Shown: positions 3,545-9,515 of the stretch, in pieces
How the letters are laid out: every line of letters begins with the position of its first letter
Numbering within the stretch: position 1 is the first letter of the stretch
Source of the DNA: Altibacter sp.
GTDB lineage: Bacteria > Bacteroidota > Bacteroidia > Flavobacteriales > Flavobacteriaceae
NCBI GenBank assembly: GCA_002696485.1
Contig: NZTP01000005.1
Coordinates: 1 to 44,827 of the forward strand
Length of the DNA: 44,827 nucleotides
Reading direction: 5' to 3'
Notes under the pieces: generated by a model
What the model was told of the DNA's origin: nothing
Database searches by the model: none
Seen by the model: the letters and a program-made list of their open reading frames with translations, nothing else
Position numbers and translations under genes: made by a program

Positions 3545-3976
3545 TTACTTTTTATCGATTATTCTACTATAAATTTTATGAACAATCGTATTTCCTAAGG
3601 GAAAATATAAGGCAAAAAAGAGTGCCATACCTAAAGCAAATACATGAGGTCCAAAGGTGCGATCAAGAATGTTGTTCGGGTAGATATACGAGGTTTGAAA
3701 AGCATATCCTCCAAACTCGAGAATTCCCATAGCTACAAGTCCGTAAGCATATTGTGTAAAAAAACTGTACTCCTTTAAAACAATGGAGATCGGCACCATA
3801 TAGAAGATATAGGTGGGAATGATTTGCCACCAATGGGTAAATTTGGCGATCTCCGTAAGAATCCCGATATAATTCATCAATACGCCCCACACGAGATACA
3901 CTACAATATAGATATATACCCTGGTTTTTTCAACCAAGCGTACTTTGCGGTACATTTGCATGAAAGCATCTTTCAT
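3545..3976 (-). CDS. Hypothetical integral membrane protein, 4 TM
   Basis: 143 residues, family not recognised. Hydrophobic segments lie at about 20-40, 48-66, 73-92 and 110-130, with positively charged ends (MYRKVRLVEKTR before TM1 and HKIYSRIIDKK after TM4). That predicts both termini on the cytoplasmic side. No catalytic motif is visible. It stands alone: a terminator lies upstream of it (serving the lipoprotein gene) and about 100 bp separate it from the next gene downstream. Confidence 0.75.
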   Translation of the reverse strand: MKDAFMQMYRKVRLVEKTRVYIYIVVYLVWGVLMNYIGILTEIAKFTHWWQIIPTYIFYMVPISIVLKEYSFFTQYAYGLVAMGILEFGGYAFQTSYIYPNNILDRTFGPHVFALGMALFFALYFPLGNTIVHKIYSRIIDKK

Positions 3977-4003
3977 AGGAGAATAATCTTACTAATGATA
4001 AAT

Positions 4004-4030
4004 AAAAAGCCTCGCATAGCGAGGCTTTTT
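4004..4030 (-). terminator. Bidirectional intrinsic terminator
   Basis: GCCTCGC (4009-4015) pairs with GCGAGGC (4019-4025) across an ATA loop, flanked by AAAAA and TTTTT. It ends transcription of the lipoprotein gene at 4052-4291. Confidence 0.9.
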
Positions 4031-4051: not shown

Positions 4052-4291
4052 TTACATGGCATCATCATTGCCTTCTACTTCATCTTCTACTTCTTGAGCA
4101 GCGTTCTCCATAGCATCGCCGGTCTCTTCAGCAGCATTTTCCATAGCATCGCCGGCATCATCCATGGCATCTTCGGTATCATCTACCATCTCTTCCATGG
4201 CATCTTCTGCTTTTTCTTCCTTGGTCTCTCTACATGAGTAGATAGAGAATACTAAGCTTAAAGCAGCGAATGATAAAATAAGTTTTTTCAT
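4052..4291 (-). CDS. Small acidic lipoprotein, SCRET family (copy 1)
   Basis: 79 residues. The signal peptide MKKLILSFAALSLVFSIYSC has a lipobox ending at Cys20, followed directly by RETKEEKAED. The mature part is almost entirely Glu, Asp, Ala and Met, with repeated blocks of the type (D/E)DAM-E-N-A-A-E, so it is probably helical and strongly acidic. It is a close paralogue of the gene upstream at 4360-4605 and a more distant one of the pair at 7619-8118. Function unknown. It is likely a membrane-anchored periplasmic or surface lipoprotein. Confidence 0.8.
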   Translation of the reverse strand: MKKLILSFAALSLVFSIYSCRETKEEKAEDAMEEMVDDTEDAMDDAGDAMENAAEETGDAMENAAQEVEDEVEGNDDAM

Positions 4292-4359: not shown

Positions 4360-4605
4360 TTAATTTTCGTTCATATCGTCTGTACCTTCAATTTCCTCTT
4401 CGATCTCTTCACCCGCTTTTTCAATGGCTTCTCCTGTTTCTTGCATAGCCTCTTCAATAGCCTCTCCGGCTTTGTCTAAATTTTCTTCGGTGTCTTGTGC
4501 TGCTGCTTCAATAGCTTCTTCGGCTTTTTCACCCGTAGTTTCGCGACAGGAATACGTGGCGAAAACTATGCTAAGTGCAGCTGCAGATAGAATTAGTTTT
4601 TTCAT
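4360..4605 (-). CDS. Small acidic lipoprotein, SCRET family (copy 2)
   Basis: 81 residues. The signal peptide MKKLILSAAALSIVFATYSC has lipidated Cys20, then RETTGEKAEEAIEAAAQ. The mature part has an 8-11 residue periodicity of the form (G)EAIEEA-x-x-(E)TGEAIEKAGEEIEEE, consistent with one acidic amphipathic helix. It shares nearly the same signal peptide and the same C-R-E-T start as copy 1, 68 bp downstream on the same strand, so this is a recent tandem duplication. No enzymatic motif. Function not known. Confidence 0.8.
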   Translation of the reverse strand: MKKLILSAAALSIVFATYSCRETTGEKAEEAIEAAAQDTEENLDKAGEAIEEAMQETGEAIEKAGEEIEEEIEGTDDMNEN

Positions 4606-4654: not shown

Positions 4655-5419
4655 TTAGGGGCGCTTTTCTATCAAATATTTCCAATACCGCTTGGGTACG
4701 TGTTGGTGATGCAGCCTCGTATTTTTTCGAGATGTAATGTTCGTGCTTTTAAAATAGTTCTTCCAAAGCGCTTCAAACTGCATTTCTTCTTCAGCATATC
4801 CAACATTTGGAGAAAGAGCGCCTGGATCAAATTTGAAGGTAATAATTTCAACGCGTACCAAATCGTAGTAGATCCCGTACTTTCGCTTCAGGTCGTAAAT
4901 GATCCATTTTTGATCGGCATACCGATGTTTGAAATGTGATATATTGAGAGGTAATACATTAAAATCCGGGGAAATAACAGCAAAGTACACACCTTCTTTG
5001 GTTTGTCGGAAACGCACAAAGGCATCCAAGCGATGTTTTTCCCGATCCACCATTTTTACAACTTTTGATAGTCGCAATATGTCAGGATCGCTATAATTTT
5101 GAGAAATAGGACTGCTGGCTTTTAGTTGTTTCTGAATAAAAATCAGCATGGACTCTTCACTCCCTGCTATTTCTGAAAGATAGGCTTTGTAAATAAGTCG
5201 TAACCCATGGTGACTGCATTTCTGCTTCAAAGTCTTCCAAACTCTTTTGGCGTGTGTGACATTGGTTTGCACAACCTCTTTTTCGTCAAATAAAGTATGA
5301 GCATGATCATACTGAGCTTCTCTAAGAATACGAATCTTAGAAAGTCTTTCGTCGTACACCTTAAATACAACCGAAAGAAAACCGTCAAAAGACCCATCAT
5401 ATATAAGAAATTTGATCAT
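4655..5419 (-). CDS. DUF4130 / TIGR03915-type putative DNA-metabolism protein
   Basis: 254 residues. I recognise this as the partner of the radical SAM DNA repair/modification protein encoded just upstream. The N-terminus (IYDGSFDGFLSVVFKVYDER) and the C-terminal half (ISPDFNVLPLNISHFKHRYADQ, then DLKRKYGIYYD and a VPKRYWKYL ending) are typical of DUF4130 proteins. The start codon overlaps the stop region of the radical SAM gene by 4 bp, a tight translational coupling that supports joint action. The biochemical reaction is not established. The family is assigned to DNA metabolism mostly through this conserved pairing. A terminator is not obvious at its 3' end. Confidence 0.88.
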   Translation of the reverse strand: MIKFLIYDGSFDGFLSVVFKVYDERLSKIRILREAQYDHAHTLFDEKEVVQTNVTHAKRVWKTLKQKCSHHGLRLIYKAYLSEIAGSEESMLIFIQKQLKASSPISQNYSDPDILRLSKVVKMVDREKHRLDAFVRFRQTKEGVYFAVISPDFNVLPLNISHFKHRYADQKWIIYDLKRKYGIYYDLVRVEIITFKFDPGALSPNVGYAEEEMQFEALWKNYFKSTNITSRKNTRLHHQHVPKRYWKYLIEKRP

Positions 5420-6699
5420 CCAACCATAGGTGTGACTGGATCAAACAAATTTAATTGTCCATTCAGCATTCCCCGAAATTTATGCTTCGATTCCTGAAGG
5501 ATCAATCCTTTAATTTGAGCCGCCGTTCTGTCCTTGGTCTCGAAACTAGGAGCGTCACAGACAATAAAATATTTTGCGCGATTTGCTGCAATACCCAACG
5601 CTTTTAAATGATCCCAATGAAGCCGTCTAAAACGTCTGGCCTGAAGTATCTTATGCACCGATTTGAGTCCAATGCCGGGTACTCTGGCGATCATCCCTCG
5701 GTCTGCTTTATTAATATCCACCGGGAAGAGCGCCAGATTCCTTAAGGCCCAGCTCAATTTTGGATCGATGTCCGAATCGAGATTAGGGTGTTCCTTAGAT
5801 AATAATTCTCTAATGTCGAATCCGTAAAACCGAAGTAGCCAATCGGTTTGATACAGCCTGTTCTCACGTAATAATGGGACATTGGTGCCAATGGATGGCA
5901 ATCGCGCATCGTAACTAATGGGAATATACCCCGAATAGTACACACGTTTCAGATTGTATTTTTTATATAAGTAAGCCGAATTGTACATGATCTCCGCATC
6001 TGTTTCCCCCGCAGCTCCTATGATCATTTGGGTACTTTGACCTGCCGGCGCATAGACCGGGGTGTTCTTGATAATTTTCCGCTCCGAGCGATACTGAATG
6101 ATCTCATTTTTCACTTTCTCCATGGGCCGAAGAAAATCGTTTCTTTTTTTATCGGGTGCAAGAAGTTTCAATCCTTCAACCGATGGAATTTCAATGTTCA
6201 CACTTAATCTGTCGGCATAGAGCCCGGCTTCACGCATTAAAGCATCACTGGCTCCGGGAATGGATTTTAAATGAATGTATCCATTGAAATTTTCTTCCTT
6301 CCGAAGTTTCTTGGCGACAGCGATCAAGCGCTCCATGGTATAGTCGGCATTCTTAAAGATCCCGCTGCTTAAGAACAGCCCTTCTATATAATTTCTTCGG
6401 TAAAAAGCAATGGTGAGATCCACCACTTCCTGCACCTTAAAAGCTGCTCTGGGTATATCATTGCTTTTGCGTGTGACACAATAGGCGCAATCGAAGATGC
6501 AATAATTTGTGAGAAGTATTTTTAGCAAAGAAACACAACGGCCGTCTTCGGTATAACTATGGCATATGCCCATGCCGCTGCTATTTCCTAATCCTTTATT
6601 TTTATTGGTACGCTTACTGCCGCTCGAGGCACATGAAACGTCGTATTTGGCGGCGTCCGCCAGGATATTCAACTTTTCTTTGATTCGTTCGTAATTCAT
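5416..6699 (-). CDS. Putative DNA modification/repair radical SAM protein (TIGR03916 type)
   Basis: 427 residues. It carries a radical-SAM Fe-S motif of form CxxxCxxC at Cys67, Cys71 and Cys74 within NYCIFDCAYCVTRKS. Other cysteines occur early (Cys23, Cys46, Cys55). A C-terminal helix-hairpin-helix region at about 335-375 (RVPGIGLKSVHKIL) suggests DNA binding, and GQLNLFD near the end is typical. Known for the family: proposed DNA repair or modification, always paired with a DUF4130 protein, as here. It is transcribed divergently from an S24 regulator. Its predicted -7 element (TATTTTTG on the minus strand, 6721-6728) is overlapped by inverted-repeat operators, so it is very likely under that regulator's control. 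Confidence 0.92.
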   Translation of the reverse strand: MNYERIKEKLNILADAAKYDVSCASSGSKRTNKNKGLGNSSGMGICHSYTEDGRCVSLLKILLTNYCIFDCAYCVTRKSNDIPRAAFKVQEVVDLTIAFYRRNYIEGLFLSSGIFKNADYTMERLIAVAKKLRKEENFNGYIHLKSIPGASDALMREAGLYADRLSVNIEIPSVEGLKLLAPDKKRNDFLRPMEKVKNEIIQYRSERKIIKNTPVYAPAGQSTQMIIGAAGETDAEIMYNSAYLYKKYNLKRVYYSGYIPISYDARLPSIGTNVPLLRENRLYQTDWLLRFYGFDIRELLSKEHPNLDSDIDPKLSWALRNLALFPVDINKADRGMIARVPGIGLKSVHKILQARRFRRLHWDHLKALGIAANRAKYFIVCDAPSFETKDRTAAQIKGLILQESKHKFRGMLNGQLNLFDPVTPMVG

Positions 6700-6707
6700 T
6701 TCATGTA

Positions 6708-6785
6708 TTTGGAAAGATTACAAAAATATGGAATATATCCATTTAAATAGGAATAGTTCCATAAAATATTTGGATAATTTCCAAA
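6708..6785. promoter_or_regulatory. Four tandem inverted-repeat operators, TTTGGA-N5-TCCAAA type
   Basis: Four 17-bp sites fill the divergent intergenic region. Site 1, 6708-6724: TTTGGA-AAGAT-TACAAA. Site 2, 6727-6743: TATGGA-ATATA-TCCATT. Site 3, 6747-6763: ATAGGA-ATAGT-TCCATA. Site 4, 6769-6785: TTTGGA-TAATT-TCCAAA, a perfect inverted repeat. Three keep GGA-N5-TCC; site 1 has one change in the right half. Start-to-start spacing is 19, 20 and 22 bp, about two helical turns, so dimers would sit on one face of the DNA. The likely ligand is the adjacent HTH-S24 protein; that assignment is inference. Confidence 0.85.
6721..6728 (-). promoter_or_regulatory. Predicted -7 element of the radical SAM repair operon
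   Basis: Read on the minus strand this is TATTTTTG, a full match to TAnnTTTG, ending about 22 bp before the start codon. No clear TTG lies 17-19 nt upstream. It overlaps the right end of operator site 1 and the left edge of site 2, so a bound repressor would block it. Confidence 0.55.
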
Positions 6786-6799
6786 TAAATGTAACTTTG
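6770..6799 (+). promoter_or_regulatory. Predicted promoter of the S24 regulator gene
   Basis: TTG at 6770-6772 and TAACTTTG at 6792-6799 match the Bacteroidota -33 and -7 elements with a 19-nt spacer. The TTG lies inside operator site 4, which predicts autorepression. The expected transcript start (about 6803-6806) coincides with the start codon, so the message may be leaderless. Confidence 0.6.
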
Positions 6800-6802
6800 G
6801 GT

Positions 6803-7573
6803 ATGGATTCAAAATTGTCAATAGAAGCGAAACGCTTCAAGAAAGTGCGTGAAGAACTCAATCACACGCAGCAATCCTTTGCCGACCTCCTGCAGATCGG
6901 TGCTACCACTGCCGATATAGAGCGTGGTAAAACAAAACTTAGTGGGAAGGTGGTGATGGAACTCCTGCGGCAATTCAATATTAATCCGTTGTGGTTGTTT
7001 GGTGAAAGTTATACGCAATTTGTGAATATAAATGGTGGTGACGTAAGTCCGAAGGTGCTTACACTCGATACAGAATCCAATGACACCATTCTTTTGGTCA
7101 ATCAAAAGGCAGCCGCTGGGTACCCGCATAACATTCAGGATGTGGATTGGTATGAATCGCTCCCATCATTCTCAATTCCGCTACCGCAATACCGAAACGC
7201 GACGTATCGAGGATTTCAGGTGGAAGGGGATAGTATGTTGCCAAATATTCGGCCTAACGAGTGGGTCTTAGGAAGAGCAGTTCCCAGTATTTCCGAAGCG
7301 AACGACAGTAAGATTTATATTGTGGTGCTGCGGGATTCCGTATTGGTAAAGAAATTGCAAAAAATACCCAATAATCCACAAAAAGTTCGATTACTTTCCT
7401 TAAATCCCGAATATCTTCCCATTGATGTAGAGATCTCGAACATACAGGAATTGTGGTTGGTAAACAGTAAATTGACATTTGGAATTGACGAGCCTTCAGA
7501 AAGTAGTTTGCTGCAGCAATTGCAACAGTCCATGCAAGAACTAAAAGGGCAAATCTCAAATTTAAAAGCATAA
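6803..7573 (+). CDS. HTH (Cro/CI-type) regulator with LexA/UmuD-like S24 self-cleavage domain
   Basis: 256 residues from ATG 6803. An in-frame ATG at 6728 lies within the operators, so I reject it. Residues 1-66 form an XRE-type helix-turn-helix (HTQQSFADLLQIGATTADIERG). Residues about 95-225 are a peptidase S24 domain. The cleavage site AAAGYP puts Ala105-Gly106 where LexA and UmuD have Ala-Gly. The nucleophile is Ser144 in EGDSM and the general base is probably Lys183 in VLVKKL. All required residues are intact, so self-cleavage is plausible. The C-terminus (about 230-256) is Gln-rich and helical. The gene is divergent from the repair operon and shares an operator array with it. Predicted role: damage-responsive repressor of itself and the repair pair. 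Confidence 0.92.
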   Translation: MDSKLSIEAKRFKKVREELNHTQQSFADLLQIGATTADIERGKTKLSGKVVMELLRQFNINPLWLFGESYTQFVNINGGDVSPKVLTLDTESNDTILLVNQKAAAGYPHNIQDVDWYESLPSFSIPLPQYRNATYRGFQVEGDSMLPNIRPNEWVLGRAVPSISEANDSKIYIVVLRDSVLVKKLQKIPNNPQKVRLLSLNPEYLPIDVEISNIQELWLVNSKLTFGIDEPSESSLLQQLQQSMQELKGQISNLKA

Positions 7574-7574
7574 A

Positions 7575-7600
7575 AAGAGGCGACATTTCTGTCGCCTCTT
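7575..7600 (-). terminator. Intrinsic terminator between regulator and lipoprotein gene
   Basis: AAGAGGCGACA (7575-7585) pairs perfectly with TGTCGCCTCTT (7590-7600) around a TTTC loop. The T-run is better on the minus strand, so it mainly ends the SCRET lipoprotein operon, but it can also stop the regulator transcript. Confidence 0.85.
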
Positions 7601-7618
7601 ATAAACTAACAAATTATA

Positions 7619-7876
7619 TTAGTTGTCATTATCGGTCTTTACCTTAATCTTGGTATCACCGTCATCTTCTTTAATCTTCACCGATTTATCCTCGGTTTCC
7701 ATCTTGATCTTGGTGTCGCCGTCATCTTCTTTCACTTTAATCTCGGCGCCTTCTTCCTCCATTTCTTGGATCAAGGCCTCGCTTTCGGTCATTTCTTCCT
7801 CTTTCGTTTCTCTGCAAGAAGTAAAAGAAGTCCCCATGAATAATAGGGTTACTGCAATAATTGCTACTTTTTTCAT
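7619..7876 (-). CDS. Small lipoprotein, SCRET family (copy 3), with KIKEDDGDTKIK repeats
   Basis: 85 residues. The signal peptide MKKVAIIAVTLLFMGTSFTSC ends at lipidated Cys21, followed by RETKEEEMTESEA. The second half has a repeat: VKEDDGDTKIKMETEDKS is followed by VKIKEDDGDTKIKVKTD. The alternating Lys-Ile-Lys pattern looks like beta strands, unlike the helical copies 1 and 2. It is second in a two-gene unit, 14 bp after copy 4. Function unknown. Long Ser-rich frames on the opposite strand are shadows of the Glu/Asp codons. Confidence 0.8.
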   Translation of the reverse strand: MKKVAIIAVTLLFMGTSFTSCRETKEEEMTESEALIQEMEEEGAEIKVKEDDGDTKIKMETEDKSVKIKEDDGDTKIKVKTDNDN

Positions 7877-7890
7877 ATAGATCTGTTTAA

Positions 7891-8118
7891 TTAATCGTCG
7901 TTTCCAATTTTGTCGATCTCTTCGTTGATTTCCTCATTAATCTCTTTGTCCACTTCTTTAGCGGTACGCTCCAAGATCCCTTCCGATTCTTCAACCGCCT
8001 CATTGGTTTCTACTTCAACCTCTCGTACCACTTCTTTGGTTTCAGTTTTAGTTTCTCTACACGATGTAGTGGCCAATGCCGCTAGAACGATTGCAATTGA
8101 TAAGATTATTCTTTTCAT
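7891..8118 (-). CDS. Small lipoprotein, SCRET family (copy 4)
   Basis: 75 residues. The signal peptide MKRIILSIAIVLAALATTSC has lipidated Cys20, then RETKTETKEVVREVEVE. The rest is charged and probably coiled, with INEEINEEIDKI near the end. It is the first gene of a two-gene unit with copy 3. A perfect -7 match (TAGCTTTG on the minus strand at 8149-8156) lies 31 bp upstream of the start. Like the other three copies it keeps the signature Ser-Cys-Arg-Glu-Thr across the processing site while the mature part diverges. Function unknown. Confidence 0.8.
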   Translation of the reverse strand: MKRIILSIAIVLAALATTSCRETKTETKEVVREVEVETNEAVEESEGILERTAKEVDKEINEEINEEIDKIGNDD

Positions 8119-8148
8119 TTTCTAATAGGTTTGTGTTAATAGCTAAAA

Positions 8149-8156
8149 CAAAGCTA
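8149..8156 (-). promoter_or_regulatory. Predicted -7 element of the SCRET copy 4/3 operon
   Basis: TAGCTTTG on the minus strand matches TAnnTTTG exactly. No TTG is seen at the usual -33 distance. The rest of 8119-8258 contains no other feature I can support. Confidence 0.45.
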
Positions 8157-8258
8157 CATTTTTTAACATTTGGTCCTTCGTAAAGTTTTATTAAAGTTTC
8201 TAAACGAAATCTTATCATCTTCACCAAAGTTGTTGAATTAATCTCTGAAAATGAGGGG

Positions 8259-9515
8259 TTATTTGATTTGTCCCTTGACATTTATCTGTCTAAGGTAGTT
8301 CATCGTCTTCTCTGTTGCTCCCGTATTTTTATGTACAAAATGGCCGCAGATCATACCGGTTTTTACTCTGAAGGATGTATCTGAAATGAGCTTTTGCTCT
8401 ATCTCTTTGTACGCTTCCGGAGCGTCCACCGAAAAAAGACCTGCCAATTGCTCTAACCGTTGTGCTTCGGGAAAGTTTGAATAATTTTTTCCTATAATAA
8501 TAGGAATGCCGAAAGTGGCCGGTTCAAGAATATTGTGCAAACCGGTTGCGCCCATGGCCCCGCCAACATAAGCGATGTCTCCATAGCTGTAAATTTTGGT
8601 AAGAATACCAATTGTATCAACAATAAGGACTTGGTATTCTGAAAGGTGTTTTCCTTTCTTTTCTGAATAAAGCACGCTGGACTTTGTTATTTTTTTTCTG
8701 AAAGCATCAATCTTCGGCATGTCGATCTTATGGGGGGCTATTACGTATTTTACAAACGGTGTAGACGTATTGATCGCCGTTAACAGAACCGCTTCATCTT
8801 CAGGCCAAGTGCTTCCGCATACTATACACAAAGTATCTCCTTTAAATTGCTCCATGAAATCAAGTGTATTGTCCTTCTCAATTTGCTGTGATACACGATC
8901 GAAACGCGTGTCGCCGCTTACGGTCACATTCTTCAAGTTAAGGCTTTGCAGCAATTCTTCGGAAACTCGATCTTGCACGAAAATATGCTCGAAGCTTCGC
9001 AAAGCGTTACGCATAAATCCTCCGTACGATTTAAAAAATATTTGCTCCTTCCGAAACAAACCCGAGACCAAGAGCGTAGGGATCCCCTCTTTTTTTAATG
9101 TCCAAAGATAATTGGGCCAAAATTCGTATTTCACGAAAATAACCAGCGAAGGATGGATGGCCTTGACGAATCGCGTTGCATTTTGTCGCGTATCCATAGG
9201 CAAGTAGACGACCACATCGGCCAAAGGAGTGTCTTTCTTGACCTCAAAACCCGATGGCGAAAAGAACGAAACGAGTATCTTATAGTGGGAAAATTCTTTT
9301 CTAACGGCTTCCATAATTGGAACTCCCTGTTCAAATTCTCCTAAAGAAGCACAATGAAACCAAATGGTTTTATCCTCTGGGCCAATATGTTCTTCAAGCG
9401 TGTCAAAAACGTGAACCCGACCTTGAACGAAGAGCTTCATTTTTTTACTGAAATACTGTGCAACCCACAGATGAACGTAAGCAATTCGAGTTAAGAAGCT
9501 GTATAAAATGCGCAT
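8259..9515 (-). CDS. waaA: 3-deoxy-D-manno-octulosonic acid (Kdo) transferase
   Basis: 418 residues from ATG 9515 (MRILYSFLTRIAYVHLW). A start 17 codons further upstream is possible but less likely. This membrane-associated GT30 glycosyltransferase adds Kdo from CMP-Kdo to lipid A at the inner membrane. The signature HCASLGEFEQG places the catalytic Glu60 near the N-terminal domain. The C-terminal Rossmann domain has DTIGILTKIYSYGDIAYVGG and GLHNILEPATFGIPIIIG, both typical of the family. Length is normal (about 410-425). It is divergent from a sugar aminotransferase gene and so sits next to surface-polysaccharide functions. Confidence 0.95.
   Translation of the reverse strand: MRILYSFLTRIAYVHLWVAQYFSKKMKLFVQGRVHVFDTLEEHIGPEDKTIWFHCASLGEFEQGVPIMEAVRKEFSHYKILVSFFSPSGFEVKKDTPLADVVVYLPMDTRQNATRFVKAIHPSLVIFVKYEFWPNYLWTLKKEGIPTLLVSGLFRKEQIFFKSYGGFMRNALRSFEHIFVQDRVSEELLQSLNLKNVTVSGDTRFDRVSQQIEKDNTLDFMEQFKGDTLCIVCGSTWPEDEAVLLTAINTSTPFVKYVIAPHKIDMPKIDAFRKKITKSSVLYSEKKGKHLSEYQVLIVDTIGILTKIYSYGDIAYVGGAMGATGLHNILEPATFGIPIIIGKNYSNFPEAQRLEQLAGLFSVDAPEAYKEIEQKLISDTSFRVKTGMICGHFVHKNTGATEKTMNYLRQINVKGQIK

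Follow-up and report, generated by a model that had tools for sequence, protein, structure and literature searches.

Two groups of non-canonical LexA are distinguished among Bacteroidetes in the part of PMC8565304 drawn on here, with the motifs GGA-N5-TCC (mainly Flavobacteriaceae) and CTAA-N5-TTAG. Evidence for the first group comes from Salegentibacter agarivorans (tested protein, WP_075324850.1), in which the motif was shown to be bound and mitomycin C to cause induction, but not of recA; cleavage was argued from conserved residues and not demonstrated. Targets listed there include dinB with dnaE, splB (COG1533) and an operon COG1573-COG4277. Here, a 44,827-nucleotide stretch of Altibacter sp. 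DNA (Flavobacteriaceae; contig NZTP01000005.1, positions 1–44,827, assembly GCA_002696485.1; hereafter the window) was analyzed, in which a gene encoding an S24-type regulator lies head-to-head with an operon encoding a radical SAM protein and a DUF4130 protein. Because it shows all the features compared, we assign this regulator to the GGA-N5-TCC group as described in that part of the source: HTH_3 and S24 domains, an Ala-Gly site, a Ser-Lys dyad, an origin in Flavobacteriaceae, autoregulatory tandem GGA-N5-TCC sites at its own promoter, and a target set comprising dinB with dnaE, a SplB-type (COG1533-like) radical SAM gene and the radical SAM/DUF4130 operon. By contrast with the published group, only three tandem-site promoters were found in this genome, with no umuDC or recA site; moreover, the regulator is head-to-head with the radical SAM/DUF4130 operon, and the partner protein lacks a uracil-DNA glycosylase (UDG) domain. 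The circuit is thus already published as a kind, and the window adds a further member: a putatively self-cleaving regulator that, with its tandem operators, very probably acts as an SOS switch over its own gene, the radical SAM/DUF4130 pair, dnaE-dinB and a PA0069-family gene.

The regulator and its operators

The regulator gene (6803–7573, + strand) encodes a 256-aa protein of the non-canonical LexA type. Its start was placed at ATG 6803 because the matching codon opens the orthologs; the mechanical open reading frame (ORF) opens at 6728, within the operators. It scored above the cut-off with two Pfam models, HTH_3 (29.7 bits against 23) and Peptidase_S24 (47.9 bits against 23.3). Numbered from 6803, the protein contains a cleavage site at A105-G106 together with S144 and K183, exactly as a sequence-only reading of this DNA had described alongside an XRE-type helix-turn-helix (HTH), and these residues were invariant in 23/23 aligned regulators (that of the window plus 22 of the 29 full-length ones from the named loci, i.e. 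the best 80 of 235 radical SAM loci).

The S24 domain with its cleavage residues is shared with canonical LexA, as would be the logic of a damage switch, whereas in the window regulator a phage-type HTH_3 takes the place of the winged DNA-binding domain of LexA, and the operator differs. The LexA DNA-binding family was not among its Pfam matches at E ≤ 1, HTH_3 being present in its place, and with the UmuD-type NCBIfam model NF007621 it scored 26.2 bits, below the cut-off of 110. A search of PDB sequences gave no match at E ≤ 0.01, and a profile of the regulator gave weak matches to HTH and LexA entries. HdiR and UmuDAb, as described in that part of PMC8565304, are likewise S24 stand-ins for LexA that control error-prone polymerases; they belong to other lineages. 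The sequence-only reading had also suggested that the regulator replaces LexA. It proved to be the sole PF00717 match in the genome, so this model detects no LexA or UmuD apart from it.

Three GGA-N5-TCC palindromes and a half-site lie between the divergent genes, which confirms the operators proposed to be common to the regulator and the pair. From the pair towards the regulator, these are a degenerate core (GGAAAGATTAC, the half-site) at 6711–6721, cores GGAATATATCC at 6730–6740 and GGAATAGTTCC at 6750–6760, and the palindrome TTTGGATAATTTCCAAA at 6769–6785, whose core occupies 6772–6782; successive cores are spaced by 19, 20 and 22 nt. Among 5000 dinucleotide shuffles of this promoter none had two or more GGA-N5-TCC cores, and 138 had one. 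A candidate regulator promoter, TTG-N19-TAACTTTG (6770–6799, + strand), was assigned on what we take to be the promoter consensus; its TTG is overlapped by the proximal operator and its end lies 3 nt upstream of the ATG. It appears to be only partly conserved, with TAnnTTTG at this position in 15/30 orthologs and a suitably placed TTG in 12/30.

Target promoters in the genome and in the family

The genome (3.02 Mb, 94 contigs, 95.8% complete) was searched for further operators. A tandem operator with A/T as outer spacer bases occurred in three places, and in none in the reversed control. Besides the divergent region between regulator and pair, these were the promoters of two further units. One, on contig C66, comprises a gene encoding a 1003-aa DNA polymerase III alpha/error-prone-type (dnaE-type) protein and, after it, a Pol IV-type dinB; the other, on contig C70, is a radical SAM gene of the PA0069 family (NF033668, 466.3 bits, cut-off 360). 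The LexA-replacement circuit with a repair pair is therefore supported and corresponds to the group published in PMC8565304, as far as the part used here goes; the pair does stand under the shared operators, but it is not the sole target, being served by one of at least three promoters.

Other candidates were discarded. A looser tandem pattern added one place, a G+C-rich repeat on C30, that disappeared once the outer spacer bases had to be A/T. With one mismatch allowed, a scan for WTTKGAN5TCMAAW was too loose (376 matches per strand; reversed control, 160), so tandem patterns were used. Strong single sites numbered 27, of which 6 fell in the three promoters, 19 within mechanical ORFs of at least 100 aa and two outside (C11 and C94). 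The C11 site is 61 nt upstream of a 453-aa ORF with 7TMR-DISM and LuxR-type domains; because both sites are single, neither was added to the targets. Three perfect single sites (C41:49563, C55:41935 and C84:7167) fall inside long ORFs and were dropped as chance occurrences. A second dinB gene (C88) had no site in the 150 nt upstream.

The distribution of regulator and operator was surveyed in 120 drawn genomes of the family, representing 119 genera. Orthologs were defined by a match at E ≤ 1e-70, a cut placed in the gap before the next match at 7.4e-27, and were found in 49/120. The tandem operator was present in 47/49 genomes with an ortholog versus 6/71 of the others, and the reversed pattern in 2/120. 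Upstream of the best 30 of the 49 orthologs there was at least one site in 30/30 and at least two within 110 nt in 26/30, and 37/42 neighbouring core pairs were 18–23 nt apart.

The radical SAM gene was found in 31 of the drawn genomes, 22 with and 9 without a regulator ortholog. Both genes were head-to-head in 17 of the 22, with sites in 17/17; in G009 and G096 the regulator is divergent from a dinB-dnaE-radicalSAM-DUF4130 run, which the pair ends. By contrast, none of the nine radical SAM genes without an ortholog had a site within 300 nt. Among the named loci, a divergent regulator was upstream in 32, with at least two sites between in 32/32. The other 48 had at least one GGA site within 300 nt in 6 cases and CTAA-N5-TTAG in 18; both motifs occurred together in none, and 24 had neither. 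Across the same 80 loci, DUF4130 was at most 350 nt downstream of the radical SAM gene in 78. Thus the operator and the gene pairing, for which recurrence in relatives had been set as a test, both recur. In the S. agarivorans locus (L204) the radical SAM operon has one strict site and the regulator is outside the locus.

Some of these loci show features of their own. The G009 run (L142) opens at 7342–8464 with a 275-aa MCGR-type ORF, named by eye as of the SOS-response-associated peptidase type, and a 98-aa ORF; these two extra ORFs put about 1.3 kb between the operators and dinB. In four Aquimarina loci (L183, L189, L191 and L207) a DUF559 (restriction-endonuclease-like) ORF at about 3631–4008, which Pfam identified in L183 and L189, separates the operators of the regulator from the radical SAM gene and overlaps the start of that gene. 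The pair is absent from another genome of the window's genus (G086, L027), in which the regulator is 95% identical and three GGA-N5-TCC sites are retained. A flavobacterial-type regulator/pair locus was also found on a contig filed as a Saccharospirillaceae metagenome-assembled genome (L158), likely misbinned or transferred.

The radical SAM/DUF4130 pair

The pair is encoded on the – strand by a gene for a 427-aa radical SAM protein with a CxxxCxxC motif (5416–6699) and one for a 254-aa DUF4130 protein (4655–5419). The coupling and divergent orientation that had been read from the sequence were borne out: the two proteins scored 658.8 bits with TIGR03916 (cut-off 343.5) and 264.6 bits with TIGR03915 (cut-off 112.25), respectively, and an ATGA overlap joins the stop of the first gene to the start of the second. 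Cysteines C67, C71 and C74 of the radical SAM protein were invariant in 37/37 sequences, and a weak helix-hairpin-helix match fell under its cut-off. With both proteins adjoining and above the curated cut-offs, the pair resembles the TIGR03916/TIGR03915 pair annotated as putative DNA modification/repair, which has no established reaction; that of the window has no UDG domain. A literature search with DUF4130, COG4277 and TIGR03916 found no account of the reaction.

In the part of PMC3765255 seen here, DUF4130 is predicted to be an enzyme related to mutagenesis and is associated with SplB-like radical SAM proteins and with UDGs, the latter link being made in a figure legend. Together with the COG1573-COG4277 label and its reading in the cited part of PMC8565304, this would make the pair a uracil-DNA-glycosylase base excision system. 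Such a function is unlikely. Pfam searches of the two pair proteins, to which the UDG search was confined with none made elsewhere in the genome, gave no UDG family at E ≤ 1, and of the 79 DUF4130 ORFs recovered from the 80 named loci 76 were 200–300 aa long, three were shorter and none was longer; uracil excision therefore misfits this form of the pair. A good structure model of the DUF4130 protein (pLDDT 88, pTM 0.80) matched four PDB chains at E ≤ 0.001 in Foldseek, from 7d62 (E 2e-4 and 6e-4) and 8a8k (about 6e-4), with TM-scores of at most 0.44, and no UDG was among the 50 of 502 matches listed. We take these chains to be DHH-type phosphoesterases, a likeness of the model that is a hint only; no DHH motif was seen in the alignment columns inspected, and a DUF4130 profile gave only chance-level matches. 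The radical SAM model was of too low quality to be used (pLDDT 65.5), and its matches were generic radical SAM enzymes. Most likely, the two proteins act together as a unit on damaged DNA, with no uracil glycosylase of their own.

DUF4130 was present in 44 of the 120 drawn genomes: 31 with the radical SAM gene, 12 without it and one as a fragment. It lay beside the radical SAM gene in 30 of the 31, and apart from it in G020. The fragment is a 70-aa open frame (L154; G116:C7:144624-144758) that matches only the C-terminal part (197–241) of TIGR03915, in a genome without a radical SAM match, and may be a remnant or a stand-alone tail. By coordinates, all 12 partner-free DUF4130 genes were head-to-head with the regulator, with at least two GGA sites between in 12/12; in L050 and L051 an ORF named by eye as uvrA-like follows the partner-free gene beside the regulator. 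When 30 of the 31 partnered and the 12 partner-free proteins were compared, PKRYW was found in 30/30 versus 0/12, and E-x-H-R in 30/30 versus 1/12. A tree of these 42 proteins required three changes between partnered and partner-free labels, at least two of them imposed by branches with good support; the branches of several partner-free proteins were very long. Judged from these sequences, the radical SAM partner was probably lost more than once, followed by a loss of constraint on DUF4130, which suggests that the two proteins are interdependent. On the other side, the tree includes the motif columns, its long branches are unsure, and the partner-free genes may simply be decaying. Tentatively, the pair could be an SOS-induced enzyme of two parts that processes lesions without a glycosylase, the PKRYW tail and EKHRM helix of DUF4130 serving the radical SAM protein; the partner-free forms, fast-diverging and bereft of these motifs, might then be SOS accessories repurposed under the operators of the head-to-head LexA-like regulator.

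As for the surroundings, four small lipoprotein-like ORFs, all on the – strand, flank the locus (4052–4291, 4360–4605, 7619–7876 and 7891–8118); they have a SCRET motif in common and no Pfam match above cut-off, and L031 and L041 have an ORF resembling them close to the regulator. Genes for tRNA-Gly (gcc; 2537–2610) and tRNA-Leu (taa; 2737–2823) come after a mutS-like ORF (9–2417; named by eye).

The proposed circuit and its alternatives

In the circuit that we infer, the regulator would bind the tandem GGA-N5-TCC palindromes and thereby silence its own promoter, the radical SAM/DUF4130 operon, the operon of the dnaE-type polymerase and dinB, and the PA0069-family radical SAM gene. Upon DNA damage, RecA filaments would stimulate self-cleavage at A105-G106 by S144/K183, leading to derepression of all four. 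Several observations weigh against a switch of this kind. A single GGA-N5-TCC core is common genome-wide (96 and 79 on the two strands; reversed control, 74 and 73), so that only the tandem arrangement is distinctive, and the strong single sites are scarcely enriched (27 versus 18 in the control); recA (C93) has no such core in the 1470 nt upstream. Targets may be missed because the genome is 95.8% complete and in 94 contigs. Across the family, the association between ortholog and tandem operator (Fisher p = 3.9e-24) is uncorrected for the relatedness of the genomes, two genomes with an ortholog lack the operator (G039, G119) and six have it without an ortholog (G018, G035, G037, G047, G054, G060). 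Finally, one of the 22 genomes with both regulator and radical SAM gene (G056) has no site before the latter.

An HTH_3 of the phage-repressor type with the pair as adjoining target would also suit a local autoregulator, acting on itself and its neighbours and not as a global damage switch. This is very unlikely given the same tandem operator before dnaE-dinB and the PA0069-family gene of its own genome; furthermore, in G074 and G085, where pair and regulator are not neighbours, the pair has two sites of its own, and no phage genes were noticed by eye among the nearby ORFs. That the regulator answers another signal, or activates these targets instead of being a cleavable repressor, is likewise very unlikely, even if activation stays possible absent non-cleavable mutants according to the cited part of PMC8565304, since the cleavage residues are invariant, the overlap of the proximal operator with the candidate promoter suits repression, and translesion polymerases and repair-type genes make up the targets.

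A damage-responsive switch is thus the reading that we retain. By independent whole-genome counts, the published SOS switch of Flavobacteriaceae covers this organism, with a small set of three target promoters. Depending on the Bacteroidota lineage, the pair stands under one or the other of two SOS motifs; it carries no glycosylase, and its proteins seem to depend on each other, which together make its reaction a concrete question for testing.

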